A DNA stretch of 64,000 nucleotides, from positions 1 to 64,000 of the forward strand of contig NZ_BBYM01000030.1 in assembly GCF_001570405.1 (NCBI RefSeq), read 5' to 3'. Positions 2,019 to 7,564 of the stretch are shown here, in pieces. Position numbers and translations under genes: made by a program. Under the pieces are notes generated by a model. It was not told where the DNA came from, searched no databases, and was given only the letters and a program-made list of their open reading frames with translations. Numbering within the stretch: the stretch's first letter is position 1; the number at the start of each line of letters is the position of its first letter. This DNA comes from Microtetraspora niveoalba. Lineage in GTDB: Bacteria > Actinomycetota > Actinomycetes > Streptosporangiales > Streptosporangiaceae.

Positions 2019-2450
2019 TCAGGGCGTGACGAGGTCCAGAGTCGGGAAGTAGGTGCGGTAGCGCGCTCCGTCCCTTGTCAGCAAGGTGTAGTTCCGCACG
2101 GCCGCGTGCGCGCCGATGAAGAAATCCGGCAGGGGAGATCTCCGCTCACCGCCACGCTTTCGATAGGCGAGGTGCGCCCTCCCGGCCAGAAACGCGGCTT
2201 CGTACGGAATGTCTTCGCGCTCGAAATCGTCGGAGGGCAGCGCCGCATCGACGGCCTCGATGCCCGGGTATCCGACCGAGACCTCCGCGTAGATCACCGG
2301 GTTGATGACCACACGACCCTTGTCACGCGCCGACGCGACGGCTTGGTCCGACCAGTCGGCCCACTTCGGGTCATCGGTGGCGATATCAAGAAGCACGCAG
2401 GAGTCGACCATCGTGACCCGATCACCGACGACATGCAGACTAGTCGCCAC
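2019..2450 (-). CDS. vapC: VapC-type PIN-domain ribonuclease toxin
   Basis: PIN-domain toxins are Mg-dependent RNases that cut tRNA or mRNA when freed from their antitoxin. The acidic active-site set is visible in order: VDSCVLLD near the N-terminus, YAEVS in the middle, LPDFFIGAHA and then TRDGARY near the C-terminus. At 143 residues it has the usual VapC length. The GTG start at 2450 lies inside the antitoxin gene, an 11-base overlap that indicates coupled translation. An internal ATG precedes VDSC and could be the true start. The toxin appears intact. Confidence 0.87.
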   Translation of the reverse strand: MATSLHVVGDRVTMVDSCVLLDIATDDPKWADWSDQAVASARDKGRVVINPVIYAEVSVGYPGIEAVDAALPSDDFEREDIPYEAAFLAGRAHLAYRKRGGERRSPLPDFFIGAHAAVRNYTLLTRDGARYRTYFPTLDLVTP

Positions 2451-2667
2451 GCAGCAGCCCCATGATCTCGTCCGTGCTCATGGTCGTCGTCGCGGTTCCG
2501 CGAAGCCGCCGGGTCGCACGCTGTCCCCGGGTGGCGCTCGCCTCACGACGGACGATCTGCAGCGTGTTGCCGACCTCTATCACGTCGACCTCGTCACCTT
2601 CGTGCAGACCGTATTTCTCGCGGATCTCGGCGGGGATGGTGACCTGCCCCTTGCTGTTCAGCCGCAT
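2440..2667 (-). CDS. vapB: VapB-type AbrB/SpoVT antitoxin
   Basis: The product begins MRLNSKGQVTIPAEIREKYG, the hallmark of the swapped-hairpin AbrB DNA-binding fold, followed by GDEVDVIEVGNTLQIVRR. The C-terminal tail (about residues 45-75) is the part expected to block the VapC active site. The ATG at 2667 is chosen over an upstream in-frame GTG at 2685 because GGAG sits 8 bases before it and because family members start MRLNSKGQ. The pair should repress its own promoter; direct repeats lie just upstream. Confidence 0.87.
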   Translation of the reverse strand: MRLNSKGQVTIPAEIREKYGLHEGDEVDVIEVGNTLQIVRREASATRGQRATRRLRGTATTTMSTDEIMGLLRGD

Positions 2668-2682
2668 GCAGCCCACTCCAGA

Positions 2683-2708
2683 CACGTATTACACCTACCA
2701 CGTAACAC
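2683..2708 (-). promoter_or_regulatory. Candidate VapB/VapBC operator (direct repeats)
   Basis: Two copies of a CACGTA(TT/AA)CAC-like decamer (2683-2692 and 2699-2708) are separated by 6 bases immediately upstream of vapB. The 16-base centre-to-centre spacing is more than one helical turn. AbrB-type antitoxins usually bind repeats in this position, but binding here is inferred. Confidence 0.35.
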
Positions 2709-2789: not shown

Positions 2790-3092
2790 TCAGACGGCGA
2801 CGGCGAGCTGGGCGACCTCGCCCAGCTTGGCCTCGACCGCGACGTCCTTGGTGACGCCGCCGCCCGCGATGATGCGGACGGTCCACTGGCCGGGAGCGGC
2901 GAAGAACCGGAAGACGCCCTCGTCGGAGACGACGACCTCGCCGGTGAACTCGCCGGAGTGGTCGAGCAGGCGGGCGTAGGCCGTACCGGCGCCGGAGACG
3001 ACGCCCTGGATGACGGCCTGCGTCGACAGGTCGATGCCTGCCGGCAGCGCCACGGTCTGCTCCGGTGCGGCGCAACCCTGAGTGGTGGTCAT
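2790..3092 (-). CDS. sseC: DUF1416 protein (SseC-like), sulfur operon
   Basis: This 100-residue protein is a beta-rich domain of the DUF1416/SseC family (MTTTQGCAAPEQ start; GEVVVSDEGVFRFFAAPGQW core). In mycobacteria sseC follows the thiosulfate sulfurtransferase gene cysA2/sseA, as here. The biochemical role is not established. A link to sulfur transfer is inferred from the constant pairing and the N-terminal Cys7. Its ATG overlaps the sseA stop codon by 1 base (ATGA-type junction), so translation is probably coupled. An upstream in-frame extension exists but lies inside sseA. Confidence 0.9.
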   Translation of the reverse strand: MTTTQGCAAPEQTVALPAGIDLSTQAVIQGVVSGAGTAYARLLDHSGEFTGEVVVSDEGVFRFFAAPGQWTVRIIAGGGVTKDVAVEAKLGEVAQLAVAV

Positions 3093-3931
3093 CAGCGAGC
3101 CTCCCCAAGCTCCACGGGCACGCCCACGAGCGAGCCGTACTCGGTCCACGAACCGTCGTAGTTCTTCACATTGGGCTGGTCGAGGAGCTCGTGCAGCACG
3201 AACCAGGTGTGCGCCGAGCGCTCCCCGATGCGGCAGTAGGCGATGGTGTCCTTGCCGAAGTCGACGCCGGCCGCGGCGTAGAGCTTCTTCAGGTCCTCGT
3301 CCGACTTGAAGGTGCCGTCGTCGTTGGCCGCCTTGGACCACGGGATGTTGCGGGCGGTGGGCACGTGGCCCGCGCGCTGCGCCTGCTCCTGCGGGAGGTG
3401 CGCCGGGGCGAGCAGCTTGCCGGTGAACTCGTCGGGGGAGCGCACGTCGACCAGGTTCTGCTTGCCGATGGCCTCCACGACCTCGTCACGGAAGGCGCGC
3501 AGCGACAGGTCCTGCTCCTGCGCGGTGTAGGTGGTGGCCGGACGCTGCGGCACCTCCTCGACCAGCTCGCGGGAGTCGAGCTCCCACTTCTTGCGGCCGC
3601 CGTCGAGCAGCTTGACGTTCTCGTGGCCGTACAGCTTGAAGTACCAGTACGCGTAGGACGCGAACCAGTTGTTGTTTCCGCCGTAAAGCACGACCGTGTC
3701 GTCGTTGGCGATGCCGCGAGCCGACAGCAGGGCTTCGAACCCGGCCCGGTCCACGAAGTCGCGGCGGACGGGGTCCTGGAGGTCGTCCCTCCAGTCGATC
3801 TTCACGGCGCCACGGATGTGACCCTTGTCGTAGGCGCTGGTGTCCTCGTCGACCTCGACGAGCACGACACCGGGCGTGTCGAGGTTGGCCTCGACCCAGT
3901 CGGCATCCACCAGGACGGCGGAGCGGCTCAT
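3092..3931 (-). CDS. sseA: Thiosulfate/3-mercaptopyruvate sulfurtransferase (tandem rhodanese)
   Basis: The enzyme moves sulfane sulfur from thiosulfate (or 3-mercaptopyruvate) to a thiophilic acceptor through a cysteine persulfide. The 279-residue product has two rhodanese domains. The N-terminal one (about 5-125) lacks the cysteine and the C-terminal one (about 140-275) carries the active-site loop CRIGERS with Cys233. The CRIGERS form is typical of the actinobacterial CysA/SseA subgroup. The ATG at 3931 overlaps the end of the DUF4395 gene by 4 bases and starts at the conserved MSRSAVLV. It lies in an operon with a cysteine-type leader peptide, so expression probably responds to cysteine supply. 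Confidence 0.94.
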   Translation of the reverse strand: MSRSAVLVDADWVEANLDTPGVVLVEVDEDTSAYDKGHIRGAVKIDWRDDLQDPVRRDFVDRAGFEALLSARGIANDDTVVLYGGNNNWFASYAYWYFKLYGHENVKLLDGGRKKWELDSRELVEEVPQRPATTYTAQEQDLSLRAFRDEVVEAIGKQNLVDVRSPDEFTGKLLAPAHLPQEQAQRAGHVPTARNIPWSKAANDDGTFKSDEDLKKLYAAAGVDFGKDTIAYCRIGERSAHTWFVLHELLDQPNVKNYDGSWTEYGSLVGVPVELGEAR

Positions 3932-4338
3932 GTGGTTCTCCCAGGTTGTAGACGGCGGATGATCAAGTACATTTCGCAGCCCAGGCAGAAGCCGAAGGCG
4001 GCGTTGAGGAAGGCGGCCAGCAGTGCCGCTGCTGTCGCACCCAGAGCCAGAGGGATGATCCCGGTGGCGAACCCGATCAGGCCGGCGACCGCGAAGACGA
4101 TGCCCACGCCCTGCGCGAACCGGGGCGGCGCCGCGTCTTCCAGCTCTCCCGGCGGCCCCAGTCTCGGACGTACGAACCCGCGGAAGAGTAAGCCGTACGG
4201 GGAGACGTCGAGGACGCCGAGCATGAACACGATCGCCTGGAAGGCGAGGAGCCATGCGCTGCCCGTCACCAGGACGAGCGCGAGAACCACAGTCGTGATC
4301 GCCGCGCCGAAACGCGGGCCTCGGGGATCGACCTGCAT
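3928..4338 (-). CDS. DUF4395 membrane protein
   Basis: This 136-residue protein has about four membrane segments and ends with a cysteine pair in FCLGCEMY, typical of DUF4395. In Actinobacteria this family sits beside thioredoxin and sulfurtransferase genes. A role in membrane-associated thiol or sulfur chemistry is inferred from that context and from the CxxC-like pair, not proven. The gene begins 57 bases after the leader peptide stop with a CAGGAG ribosome-binding site and overlaps sseA by 4 bases, placing it first among the structural genes of the sulfur operon. Confidence 0.88.
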   Translation of the reverse strand: MQVDPRGPRFGAAITTVVLALVLVTGSAWLLAFQAIVFMLGVLDVSPYGLLFRGFVRPRLGPPGELEDAAPPRFAQGVGIVFAVAGLIGFATGIIPLALGATAAALLAAFLNAAFGFCLGCEMYLIIRRLQPGRTT

Positions 4339-4394
4339 CGTGAGATGCTCCTGAAGGATTCGGATTGCGGCGTGTCAGCCGCGCGGAATCACCC

Positions 4395-4478
4395 TCAGGC
4401 CATGCGACAGAGCGCGGTGGCGACGCGGCAGAAGTCAACCGCCCGCCGCTTCGTCAGCAGCTCTGTCGTGGGAGTCAT
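4395..4478 (-). CDS. Cys-rich regulatory leader peptide (27 aa)
   Basis: A 27-residue ORF with the conserved core LLTKRRAVDFCRVATALC and two cysteines lies 57 bases upstream of the DUF4395-sseA-sseC genes. This matches the small actinobacterial Cys-leader peptides (Ms5788A-like) located before sulfur genes. In mycobacteria such ORFs act as cysteine-responsive attenuators, where ribosome stalling at Cys codons controls the downstream operon. The ATG at 4478 lies 7 bases after a TACTGT -10 element, so the transcript is probably leaderless. Attenuation here is inferred from the peptide and its position. Confidence 0.8.
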   Translation of the reverse strand: MTPTTELLTKRRAVDFCRVATALCRMA

Positions 4479-4485
4479 GGTCTCG

Positions 4486-4515
4486 ACAGTACCCGGCGTC
4501 TCGACATCTGTCACA
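4486..4515 (-). promoter_or_regulatory. Promoter of the sulfur operon (leaderless)
   Basis: On the minus strand, TGTGAC (4510-4515) and TACTGT (4486-4491) are separated by 18 bases and resemble -35 and -10 boxes. The expected start site falls on the A of the leader ATG at 4478. The -35 box overlaps the last codons of the upstream thioredoxin-like gene, so the sulfur operon has its own promoter inside that gene's end. Confidence 0.55.
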
Positions 4516-5104
4516 CCGCGTCCGATTGGTGAGACGATTTGTCCGAGCTCTGATCAAACCGGGCCGCCGGGCCGGGCTTCCCCTGGATCGCGGCGCCCTC
4601 GCCGGCCGTCACCGCCGCGCCGAGGGCCGCGATCACATCGGCCTTCCTGGGCAGCCCGGACGCCCTTTTCACGACATTTCCCGAACCGTCGAGAACCAGC
4701 ACCGTCGGCGTACGCAGGACGTCGAACCGCCGGACCAGATCGAGGCGGCTCTCCGCGTCGATCTCGACGTGCCGGACGCCGGGCACCATCGCGGCCACCT
4801 CGTCCAGGATCCTGCGGGTCGCCCGGCACGGCTGGCAGAACGCGGTGGAGAACTGCACGAGCGTGGCGCGCTCCCCCAGCTCCGCGCCGATCTCCTCACC
4901 GGTCACGGCACCCGCCCCCTCGCTCGTCCCGGAGGCCGCGCCCCCGGCCGCCGCCGTACCCGTCCCGGAGGGCGGCCGCACGTCACGCAGCCTCCCGTCC
5001 CGCCGCCGCGCCAGGAGCCCGATGACCAGGCCGGCGGCGAGCGTCGCGCACAGGACGACGATTCCTACCATCGCGATGGACAACCCGCGCGCGGCACGGG
5101 TCAT
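4511..5104 (-). CDS. Membrane-anchored thioredoxin-like protein
   Basis: This 197-residue protein has one N-terminal membrane segment (about residues 7-31), a low-complexity Gly/Ala/Thr linker, and a thioredoxin fold from about residue 70. The redox motif is FCQPC with Cys90 and Cys93, and a cis-proline loop is seen at RTPTVLVL. The disulfide site should face the outside, where it would reduce or isomerise thiols. It corresponds in position to the thioredoxin gene (thiX) next to cysA2 in mycobacteria. Its ATG overlaps the anti-sigma stop by 4 bases, so it is co-translated with the sigma/anti-sigma pair, suggesting a redox link. Confidence 0.88.
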   Translation of the reverse strand: MTRAARGLSIAMVGIVVLCATLAAGLVIGLLARRRDGRLRDVRPPSGTGTAAAGGAASGTSEGAGAVTGEEIGAELGERATLVQFSTAFCQPCRATRRILDEVAAMVPGVRHVEIDAESRLDLVRRFDVLRTPTVLVLDGSGNVVKRASGLPRKADVIAALGAAVTAGEGAAIQGKPGPAARFDQSSDKSSHQSDAV

Positions 5105-5895
5105 TCCCCCGGCTTCACACGTGCGGTGACCAGCTTCCGCCCGTCCGCGGTGGTCAGCTCGAAGCGCGCGATCTCCCCGACCCGGAGCTCGGTCGACCCC
5201 GTGAACGCGGCCGGGGCCGAGCTGAACCCCTGGGCGGTCGCCGACCAGCTCGCCACGGCGGAGCGTGTGCGGTCCAGGCCGACGGCGGTGAGGCGGCACA
5301 CCACACCGGCCGGCACCCCTGTGACGGTCGCTTCCACGCTGGTGCCGCCCTCGCCGGGCGTGAGCCGTACCGTCATCCGGACGTTCCCCTCCCGGCCGGT
5401 CGCCTCGGTGGCGGGGGCGGTGAGCGTGCGCGCGAGAGAGTCGGCGCTCGTGTCGGCCTCCGTCCTGGCCTCCGTCTTGGCCGCCGCCCCCGGCTCGCCG
5501 CCGGCGGCGTCGGACCGGGGCTGCGCCTGTGCCGAAACGGTGGACGCGCCGGCGGAGCCGTCCGCCGACGGGCGGGCGACCGCCATCCAGGTCGTCCCGC
5601 CGAGCGCCGCCACCACGACGGACGCGGCGAGCCCGAGCATGGCCCGCGAGAGGCGCCTGCGCCGTACGGTGGCCGCGAGGAGGCGGTCGAGCACCTCGCG
5701 CGGCGGCTCGGCCGCGTGCCTGATGTCCTCCTCCGACACACGGGCGAGGAACGGCGGCAGCCCGGACAGCTCCGCCAGCTCGGCCGGGCAGTCGGGGCAC
5801 TCGTCCAGGTGCGCCTCGACCTGCGCGGTCTCCTCGTCGTCGAGCGCCCCCAGGACGTACGCGCCCAGCGAGATCCGGACGTCGTCGCAGGTCAT
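5101..5895 (-). CDS. Transmembrane zinc-binding anti-sigma factor
   Basis: The 264-residue protein starts with a ZAS-type anti-sigma domain (LGAYVLGALDDEE, then HLDECPDCPAEL giving the HxxxCxxC zinc motif). It then has one membrane segment (about residues 85-108) and an extracytoplasmic domain. Such proteins hold an ECF sigma factor inactive and release it when the zinc thiols are oxidised or the protein is cleaved. The start of the domain resembles mycobacterial RslA, the SigL regulator. It overlaps the sigma gene by 4 bases upstream and the thioredoxin-like gene by 4 bases downstream. The outer domain is probably the sensor. Confidence 0.9.
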   Translation of the reverse strand: MTCDDVRISLGAYVLGALDDEETAQVEAHLDECPDCPAELAELSGLPPFLARVSEEDIRHAAEPPREVLDRLLAATVRRRRLSRAMLGLAASVVVAALGGTTWMAVARPSADGSAGASTVSAQAQPRSDAAGGEPGAAAKTEARTEADTSADSLARTLTAPATEATGREGNVRMTVRLTPGEGGTSVEATVTGVPAGVVCRLTAVGLDRTRSAVASWSATAQGFSSAPAAFTGSTELRVGEIARFELTTADGRKLVTARVKPGE

Positions 5896-6452
5896 GGTGC
5901 CAGCCCCCGTTCCTCCAGAGCCAGCTTGAGCGCCCGGAGCGCGTAGAAGGTCCGCGATTTGACCGTCCCCGGCGGGATGCCGAGGATCTCCGCCGCCTCC
6001 TTCACCGATCTCCCCCGGTAGTACGTCTCCAGGAGCACCTCGCGGTGCTCGGCCCTCAGCGAGGCCAGCGCCTCGGCCACGGCCCACGACTCGACGGCCC
6101 TGTCCAGCTCGTCGGCGGCGGGCAGCACGGCCAGCGCCTCGTCGCCGGTCTCCTTCGGCCGCGACCGGCGCGCCCGGTGCTGGTCGACGACGAGGTTACG
6201 CGCCACCGTGAACAGCCAGGCGCGCACCGGCCGCCCCGACATGGCCGAGGGGTTCTTCCAGGCGCGCAGCAGCGTCTCCTGGACGACGTCCTCGGCACGT
6301 CCGGGGTCGCCCGTCAGCCGCAACACGTATCCGTACAGGGGCCCGGCGTGATCGTCGAAGAGGACGCGGACGAGCTCCTCGTCGGCGGTTCCTGCTGGGC
6401 TCACGTCCTCTTGACGTAGGGACGGATCGTCGGGTTCAGCGGAGCGGGACAT
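5892..6452 (-). CDS. ECF RNA polymerase sigma factor (SigL-like)
   Basis: A 186-residue group 4 sigma factor. Region 2 lies at about residues 25-95 (VRVLFDDHAGPLYGYVLRLT, then AEDVVQETLLRAW) and region 4 at about 125-180 (REVLLETYYRGRSVKEAAEI and GTVKSRTFYALRAL). It directs RNA polymerase to stress promoters and is held by the anti-sigma protein encoded next. SigL-like identity rests on its pairing with an RslA-like protein. The start at 6452 overlaps the end of the LmeA-like gene by 17 bases, so it may be transcribed with it. Confidence 0.92.
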   Translation of the reverse strand: MSRSAEPDDPSLRQEDVSPAGTADEELVRVLFDDHAGPLYGYVLRLTGDPGRAEDVVQETLLRAWKNPSAMSGRPVRAWLFTVARNLVVDQHRARRSRPKETGDEALAVLPAADELDRAVESWAVAEALASLRAEHREVLLETYYRGRSVKEAAEILGIPPGTVKSRTFYALRALKLALEERGLAP

Positions 6453-7315: not shown

Positions 7316-7564
7316 TCATCCCCCGGCAAAGGGAGGTAAAACTTCGACGACGGCTCCCTCGGGGAGATCGACCGTGTGCGGGTCACGCGTCCCCGCGGGC
7401 GCGCCGTTCACAAGGAAGGAGCAGCGCCGCAACACCCGCGCCAGATCGGGGTTGGCGGAGATCCCCGCCAGCAGGTCCCCGAGCGTCGGCGCGTCGAACC
7501 GCTCCTCGGCGACCCCGGCCGCGGCCTTCGCCGCCGCCCAATAACGGACCGTGCCCGTGGCCAT
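7316..7564 (-). CDS. MoaD/ThiS-family sulfur carrier protein
   Basis: An 82-residue ubiquitin-like protein ends in PPFAGG, the diglycine tail that is thiocarboxylated in MoaD and ThiS. N-terminal VRYWAAAKAAAG is typical of the MoaD branch. It may provide sulfur for molybdopterin synthase, but no moaE lies nearby, and some stand-alone actinobacterial members have other carrier roles. The 199 bases up to the LmeA-like gene hold no gene. Confidence 0.82.
   Translation of the reverse strand: MATGTVRYWAAAKAAAGVAEERFDAPTLGDLLAGISANPDLARVLRRCSFLVNGAPAGTRDPHTVDLPEGAVVEVLPPFAGG

Follow-up and report, generated by a model that had tools for sequence, protein, structure and literature searches.

Within the window, by which we mean the whole 64,000-nucleotide stretch of DNA analysed, a 27-codon open reading frame (ORF) runs along the minus strand from an ATG at 4478 to a TGA that ends at 4395, encodes the peptide MTPTTELLTKRRAVDFCRVATALCRMA, and is followed after a spacer of 56 nt by the ATG (4338) of a DUF4395 gene (Table 1). 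The initial annotation described this ORF as a two-Cys leader 57 bases ahead of a DUF4395-sseA-sseC operon. Apart from the length of the spacer this description holds, as the ORF was read directly, the DUF4395, rhodanese and DUF1416 domains were confirmed by Pfam, and the gene junctions overlap. Just 3′ of sseC a small AbrB-like (antitoxin-type) protein was seen by eye (2440-2685, minus strand). A MoaD/ThiS-like sulfur-carrier protein ending in GG (7316-7564, minus strand), likewise judged by eye, is encoded close to the sulfurtransferase operon.

On the other side of the leader lies a thioredoxin-like gene, which we take to be thiX-like and which has a relative at most of the loci checked (tblastn match in 25 of 30, the window's own included). 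Directly upstream of it are genes for an ECF sigma factor and for an anti-sigma-like protein (5101-6452, minus strand), identified through NCBIfam matches, those for the anti-sigma factor being below the cut-off. The arrangement suggests that the thioredoxin-like gene ends a sigma/anti-sigma operon and that the leader promoter opens a new unit at its stop codon.

Table 1. Features of the leader locus in the window, all on the minus strand.
Feature	Position	Strand	Sequence or remark	Basis
Upstream thioredoxin-like gene	4511..5104	-	start uncertain	PF00085
-35 element	4509..4514	-	GTGACA; overlaps the stop codon of the thioredoxin-like gene	
-10 element	4486..4491	-	TACTGT (TANNNT); 7 nt before the leader ATG	
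Leader ORF	4395..4478	-	lacks a Shine-Dalgarno sequence	
Conserved 17-residue core	4407..4457	-	LTKRRAVDFCRVATALC	
First Cys codon (codon 17)	4428..4430	-	TGC	
Terminal Cys codon (codon 24)	4407..4409	-	TGT; proposed sensor codon	
P1, 5′ strand	4392..4399	-	CCTGAGGG; spans the leader stop codon	proposed
P3, 5′ arm	4378..4382	-	GCGGC	
P3, 3′ arm	4367..4371	-	GCCGC	
P1, 3′ strand	4350..4357	-	CCTTCAGG; runs into the DUF4395 Shine-Dalgarno	proposed
Shine-Dalgarno of the DUF4395 gene	4348..4352	-	AGGAG	
DUF4395 gene	3928..4338	-	PF14340	Pfam
sseA	3092..3931	-	two rhodanese domains; ATGA overlap between its start and the DUF4395 stop	Pfam
sseC	2790..3092	-	PF07210, DUF1416; TGATG overlap between its start and the sseA stop	Pfam

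The two promoter elements of the leader are 17 nt apart. To judge the -10 element we applied the TANNNT criterion published for Streptomyces lividans, where the box is reported for 93.4% of leaderless genes and lies 5-7 nt from the start site in most promoters (PMC8079986). Among 79 leaders found by anchoring on SseA, the gap between box and start codon is 7 nt in 68, 6 nt in seven and 8 nt in one, and the box was not found in the other three (L081, L096, L106). A TANNNT box occurs at random upstream positions at a rate of 0.0021, and the true chance rate here is a few times higher, since the start of each leader was picked among in-frame ATG and GTG codons for the presence of the box. A Shine-Dalgarno-like sequence precedes the leader start in none of 76 related loci, while TGAC stands in the -35 zone of 71 of them. 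A generic sigma-70 scan detected no promoter; that scan demands four of six matches in the -10 element, and TACTGT has three. By comparison across these loci, the leader start coincides with the transcript start predicted from the TANNNT box, and the leaderless signature strongly fits. The -10 box 7 bases before the ATG, taken in the initial annotation as a sign of a leaderless mRNA, and the -35 box within the end of the thioredoxin gene are thus both borne out.

The window leader scores 32.6 bits against the NCBIfam model NF042934 (cis_reg_atten, putative leader peptide; cut-off 27) and 43.4 bits against NF042933 (leader_Ms5788A, Cys-rich leader), just under the cut-off of 45. At E ≤ 1, NF042933 finds a match in all 60 genomes searched, the window's own included (seven over the cut-off and 53 without such a match), and at this threshold it also matches 6 of 14 control genomes, in each case below the cut-off; at E ≤ 0.001 it matches 262 of 393 genomes of the class and none of the controls. 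All 30 leader loci read from the 60-genome search, among them the window's own, precede sseA. The reverse approach, in which loci were chosen by the SseA protein alone, gave a leader upstream in 79 of the 80 best loci among the matches listed for named actinomycetes. The scores run from 62 to 88, and the reverse strand gives no more than 26; L067 is the sole locus of the 80 at which the leader is absent. A phylum-wide search with NF042934 returned matches in 20 of 296 genomes, only one of them outside the class, and that one a partial match that lacks Cys, so the family looks class-restricted at the search sensitivity used. The three matches obtained from Rfam belong to two eukaryotic families and fall well short of the gathering scores. 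The kinship with mycobacterial cysteine leaders that had been suggested for this ORF is therefore supported, and its placement in the leaderless cysteine-responsive attenuator class is well supported by these family comparisons.

The two Cys codons of the window leader are codons 17 and 24, and they do not form the contiguous run by which polycysteine leaders are recognized. The initial annotation had remarked that the two are not adjacent; this is correct, but it does not set the leader apart, as all 79 SseA-anchored leaders have Cys at both positions, 7 codons apart, some with additional Cys. The first Cys position is less constant across the wider family, being occupied by Cys in 116 of 181 distinct cores of the single type (those lacking a Cys run), and several related leaders carry one Cys only. 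Poly-Cys runs were seen in the genomes of one family (f6), which is taken to be the mycobacteria and their kin. The separated pair thus looks like the standard form, and the poly-Cys runs like an elaboration of it.

The more constant feature is the codon at the terminal Cys. In the SseA-anchored leaders (79 leaders, 55 distinct cores) the terminal Cys is encoded by TGT in every case and the first Cys by TGC in every case. In a larger set of 94 distinct sseA-type cores, compiled with a text pattern that caught 53 of the 57 loci without a species name, all 94 have TGT at the last Cys and 92 have TGC at the first, while Asp15 is divided between GAC (54) and GAT (40) and other codons vary. In neighbouring genes TGT occupies 38 of 580 Cys sites (6.6%). 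Paralogous leaders were picked by a protein model, which is blind to codon choice. Of 90 leaders listed from a search of 196 genomes of the class, 89 have a Cys at this position, encoded by TGT in every one, and among 46 more from lower ranks TGT is found in 42, with TGC in three and no Cys in one. Sixty and a further 20 leaders were taken by rank among the matches listed for the 196 genomes, and 19 represent the low end of the phylum-wide search. The combined set holds 203 distinct cores, from which L253 (a partial match with no Cys) was excluded and in which L236, the only core lacking the terminal Cys, was counted apart. The terminal codon is TGT in 181 of 181 distinct leaders that lack a Cys run and in 18 of 21 that have one. 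The sole terminal TGC cases are three Cys-run leaders of family f6 (L250, L252, L290), with the peptide LTRRRTVDLCRLGGCCC and the codons TGT TGC TGC, in which TGT stands two codons before the terminal TGC.

At the other Cys codons of the 181 single-type cores the choice is the opposite, with TGC at 155 of 164 and TGT at nine. Fisher's test of terminal against other Cys codons returns 3.6e-88, which is not a true probability because the sequences are related. The comparison shows a terminal Cys codon that stays UGU and whose spacing from a preceding R(-13)...D(-9)..R(-6) motif, numbered relative to the UGU, does not change; this codon, rather than the Cys pair, is likely the sensor. An alternative is that UGU is kept for a reason at the RNA level, such as pairing or protein binding, and a single site cannot by itself separate a codon constraint from an RNA constraint. 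When 79 distinct cores are compared over 33 positions, though, invariance is confined to T-G-T and to the second base of the Arg(-6) codon, which the amino acid dictates; the bases adjoining TGT and the neighbouring synonymous sites vary, and the codon is common to leaders that precede unrelated genes. We therefore consider an RNA-level cause quite improbable. A role of the peptide in trans, for instance as a small thiol- or metal-binding protein, would account for the conserved amino acids of the core, but it explains neither an invariant synonymous codon nor conservation ahead of many different sulfur genes, and in view of the codon constraint we rank it as very improbable.

The peptide in front of the UGU is itself conserved. 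Among the 181 distinct single-type cores (105 distinct peptides), R(-13) is found in 180, D(-9) in 181 and R(-6) in 177, counts that are partly circular in that the non-sseA leaders were chosen by the protein model. An R-D-R arrangement at i, i+4 and i+7 would suit a helix. The 16-residue segment preceding the UGU is fixed, while the distance from the start codon and the tail are variable: the UGU is codon 23 to 34 across 76 loci with a -10 box, and it is followed by 1-6 codons in 78 of 79 sseA leaders and by 58 in the remaining one. Since start distance and tail vary, the fixed part is what would occupy the exit tunnel once UGU had entered the A site. Such an architecture would also be expected of a nascent chain that senses free cysteine, or a thiol, inside the tunnel and then arrests the ribosome at UGU. 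TnaC, which senses tryptophan in the tunnel, is the model for this alternative, and induction by excess would fit those leaders that stand before a Cys-degrading enzyme. The constraint at the level of the codon points instead to decoding by Cys-tRNA, and biosynthetic and uptake targets fit a shortage better, which makes direct sensing in the tunnel distinctly unlikely.

Another alternative is a plain attenuator in which the number of Cys codons alone counts, and the peptide and codon choice are by-products; this has been proposed for polycysteine leaders. Such attenuators are an established mycobacterial class (Canestrari 2020, as described in PMC9031893 and PMC13236596), and polyCys members exist in the present family. 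Against this are the restriction of UGU to one position, the maintenance of three residues other than Cys, namely R(-13), D(-9) and R(-6), with counts that are partly circular, and the several leaders that have a single Cys. We regard a mechanism based on Cys-codon number alone as unlikely, while giving it more weight than direct sensing in the tunnel.

How the leader would communicate with the operon was addressed through the spacer. The sample consisted of 34 loci of the Streptosporangiaceae type, and P1 was tested in that group only: from 49 input loci, three duplicates, three that had no ribosome-binding site in range and seven that did not match the text pattern were set aside, giving 36, and L027 and L030 were removed for their different spacer architecture. 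In all 34, CCTRA starts exactly 10 nt from the first base of the TGT. The proposed outer stem P1 has a mean duplex energy of -12.7 kcal/mol compared to -6.2 for letter-shuffled arms, a value reached by 1.8% of shuffles; 89% of its alignment cells are paired, and the whole structure is 87.3% paired compared to 36-53% when it is slid. P1 forms in the minimum-energy folds of six of seven loci, the fold of L053 lacking it, and these single-sequence folds are not unusually stable (z of -0.3 to -1.4 in the seven loci). In L052, L053 and L057 the leader stop codon is further upstream and CCTGAGGG is still kept; these are three Acrocarpospora species and probably represent one event.

Covariation gives a different picture for the two stems. 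P1 shows none among the 34 loci. Its own arms pair no better than swapped ones, as the observed energy is matched in 1052 of 2000 permutations, the own arms are weaker than the swapped mean in 13 loci (the window among them, with the greatest deficit in L028, L054, L038, L025 and L056), and no P1 pair in the alignment has changes on both sides. An apparent compensatory change in L045/L046 was not counted, as it requires the register to be moved by one base. Pair 5 of the inner hairpin P3, on the other hand, is Watson-Crick in 34 of 34 loci with four compensating pair types, a result reached by 0 of 5000 permutations, with the qualification that the arms were selected as the best pairing and that the sequences are related. 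A sixth P3 position pairs in only about a third of the loci. When the loci are simply aligned by MAFFT, with some P3 arms misplaced as a result, 13 double changes and 10 unpaired cells are counted at pair 5. The covariation score of the whole structure was reached by 0 of 500 shuffles, and all double changes come from P3 pair 5 alone; the count of further pair types is unremarkable (reached by 180 of 500). P1, which has complementarity to the ribosome-binding site and lacks covariation, is plausible, not proven.

The leader might instead act by Rho-dependent or intrinsic transcription attenuation, as has been suggested for mycobacterial cys operons (PMC1262725), and not by controlling access to the ribosome-binding site. 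A terminator scan found no intrinsic terminator-like site between positions 3800 and 6500 of the window, and hairpin P3 lacks a U-run. Transcription attenuation appears rather unlikely.

Taken together, the reading we favor, at a probability of about 0.72, is that the ORF is a leaderless cis-acting cysteine-supply sensor of the DUF4395-sseA-sseC operon, based on the UGU codon and with P1 as its output. A ribosome would start on the 5′ AUG and translate the conserved core. When Cys-tRNA is short, it would wait with UGU in the A site, a position in which it would cover CCTRA; the leading edge of the waiting ribosome would thereby cover CCUGAGGG, which is otherwise paired with CCUUCAGG at the Shine-Dalgarno sequence of the operon, and the operon would be translated. 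When Cys-tRNA is plentiful, the ribosome would finish, P1 would close over hairpin P3 and expression would fall. Were the ribosome to pause at the first Cys, P1 would remain free; this would account for the universality of the last Cys alone. The least certain step is that the conserved peptide in the exit tunnel probably makes a single wobble-read codon unusually sensitive.

The genes that follow related leaders extend beyond sulfurtransferases. In 136 related leaders, a number that includes repeats, 95 precede sulfur or cysteine genes by domain (sulfurtransferase, sulfite reductase, cysteine dioxygenase, cysK/M-like, PAPS reductase or sulfatase), 17 precede other assigned genes and 24 have no assignment; the 112 assignments were made by tblastn to a representative downstream protein. 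The classes are SseA (45), sulfite reductase (16), cysteine dioxygenase (15), cysK/M-like (11), CysH (6), luciferase-like monooxygenase (6), SDF symporter (5), substrate-binding protein (3), KorA (3) and sulfatase (2). TGT is present in all ten, the assigned exceptions being the three sseA leaders with Cys runs, and in 22 of the 24 leaders without assignment, L236 and L253 having no Cys there. The genome of the window itself gave 13 matches, of which the window leader and L002-L006 were read, L006 was dropped as not leader-like, and L007-L013 (E of 2.5-10) were left out. The four further leaders obtained in this way all end in TGT and precede sulfite-reductase-like, korA-like, winged-helix and SDF symporter genes. 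Among them, L003 (contig C24), with the leader VTRNILFARLHVDLCRLAAGLC... and a terminal TGT, is separated by ~360 nt from the gene of a 2-oxoacid:ferredoxin oxidoreductase subunit (POR domain) that follows it, which is not obviously a cysteine gene. L004 (contig C25) is a leader-like ORF (...LTERRHIDLLRVCAAAC...) that overlaps the start of the winged-helix regulator gene, and its TANNNT box is absent at the usual distance.

The leaders preceding cysteine dioxygenase share the frame LWRRVHMDL[VL]RYAGC[VM]C with a terminal TGT and make up 15 of the 136 (L182, L184, L206, L209-L211, L213, L215-L217, L220-L223 and L225; L182 was assigned by Pfam, the others by tblastn). This counts against the favored reading, as the enzyme degrades cysteine and inducing it when Cys is short has no evident rationale. 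A broader and tentative proposal, to which we give somewhat less than even odds, is that the leaders form an actinomycete-wide class of hybrid sensors, in which an R...D..R nascent helix in the tunnel would prime a pause at a single fixed UGU. Supply would then be read by codon choice and peptide and not by the number of Cys codons, and many sulfur operons would share the sensor with outputs that differ and are possibly of opposite sign, as at cysteine dioxygenase.

Should the sensor indeed be one wobble-read UGU preceded by a conserved peptide, actinomycete leaders with one or two Cys would be explained, and one synonymous change could separate the roles of codon choice and nascent peptide. 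The pattern R...D..R.....UGU also provides a sequence rule for finding unannotated sulfur-gene leaders. For the window leader, we infer both the regulation and the role of the peptide from these sequence comparisons.

Several known systems resemble the one described here. Actinobacterial Cys leaders were predicted in 2005 (PMC1262725) and were seen by ribosome profiling in 2015, with cysA2/Msmeg_5788 as an example (Shell 2015; PMC4633059), and those of M. smegmatis were reported to be cysteine-responsive (Canestrari et al., 2020, as described in PMC9031893, PMC13236596 and PMC9094748). Cysteine leaders have so far been accounted for by runs of Cys codons. A statement of a fixed UGU codon was not found in the literature searched, which did not extend to Canestrari 2020 itself; within a known class, the fixed UGU is a strong regularity and, subject to that paper, a new one. 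The closest relative is the Ms5788A-type leader (NF042933), with which the window leader shares the core LTKRRAVDxCRVA, the place before an sseA/cysA2-type sulfurtransferase and the leaderless signature, whereas it has two separated Cys in place of a polyCys run. The window operon also differs in having DUF4395 between leader and sseA, an arrangement found in many relatives, including the polyCys leader L014. In the mycobacterial polycysteine leaderless attenuators, a structure hides the ribosome-binding site of the next gene. NF042934 describes the same R...D..R.....C frame, but the library entry names no mechanism and no UGU rule.

More distant is uORFC-8-2, the cysS attenuator of Rhodobacterales, which likewise has Cys codons in an upstream ORF and a proposed ribosome-mediated attenuation, but in which, as reported, the Cys codons are tandem, UGC is dominant, an intrinsic terminator is present and the lineage is unrelated (PMC8632094). 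The cys-operon leaders of Mycobacterium, Propionibacterium and Bifidobacterium are short Cys-codon ORFs that lack terminators, as here, yet they are described as Cys-codon runs, and pairing with the ribosome-binding site is not among their reported features (PMC1262725). The window leader can also be compared with the arrest peptides. Peptides of the TnaC/SecM type have a conserved nascent segment before one key codon, and the window leader differs from them in that its key codon is a Cys codon with a fixed synonymous choice and that arrest is here putative.
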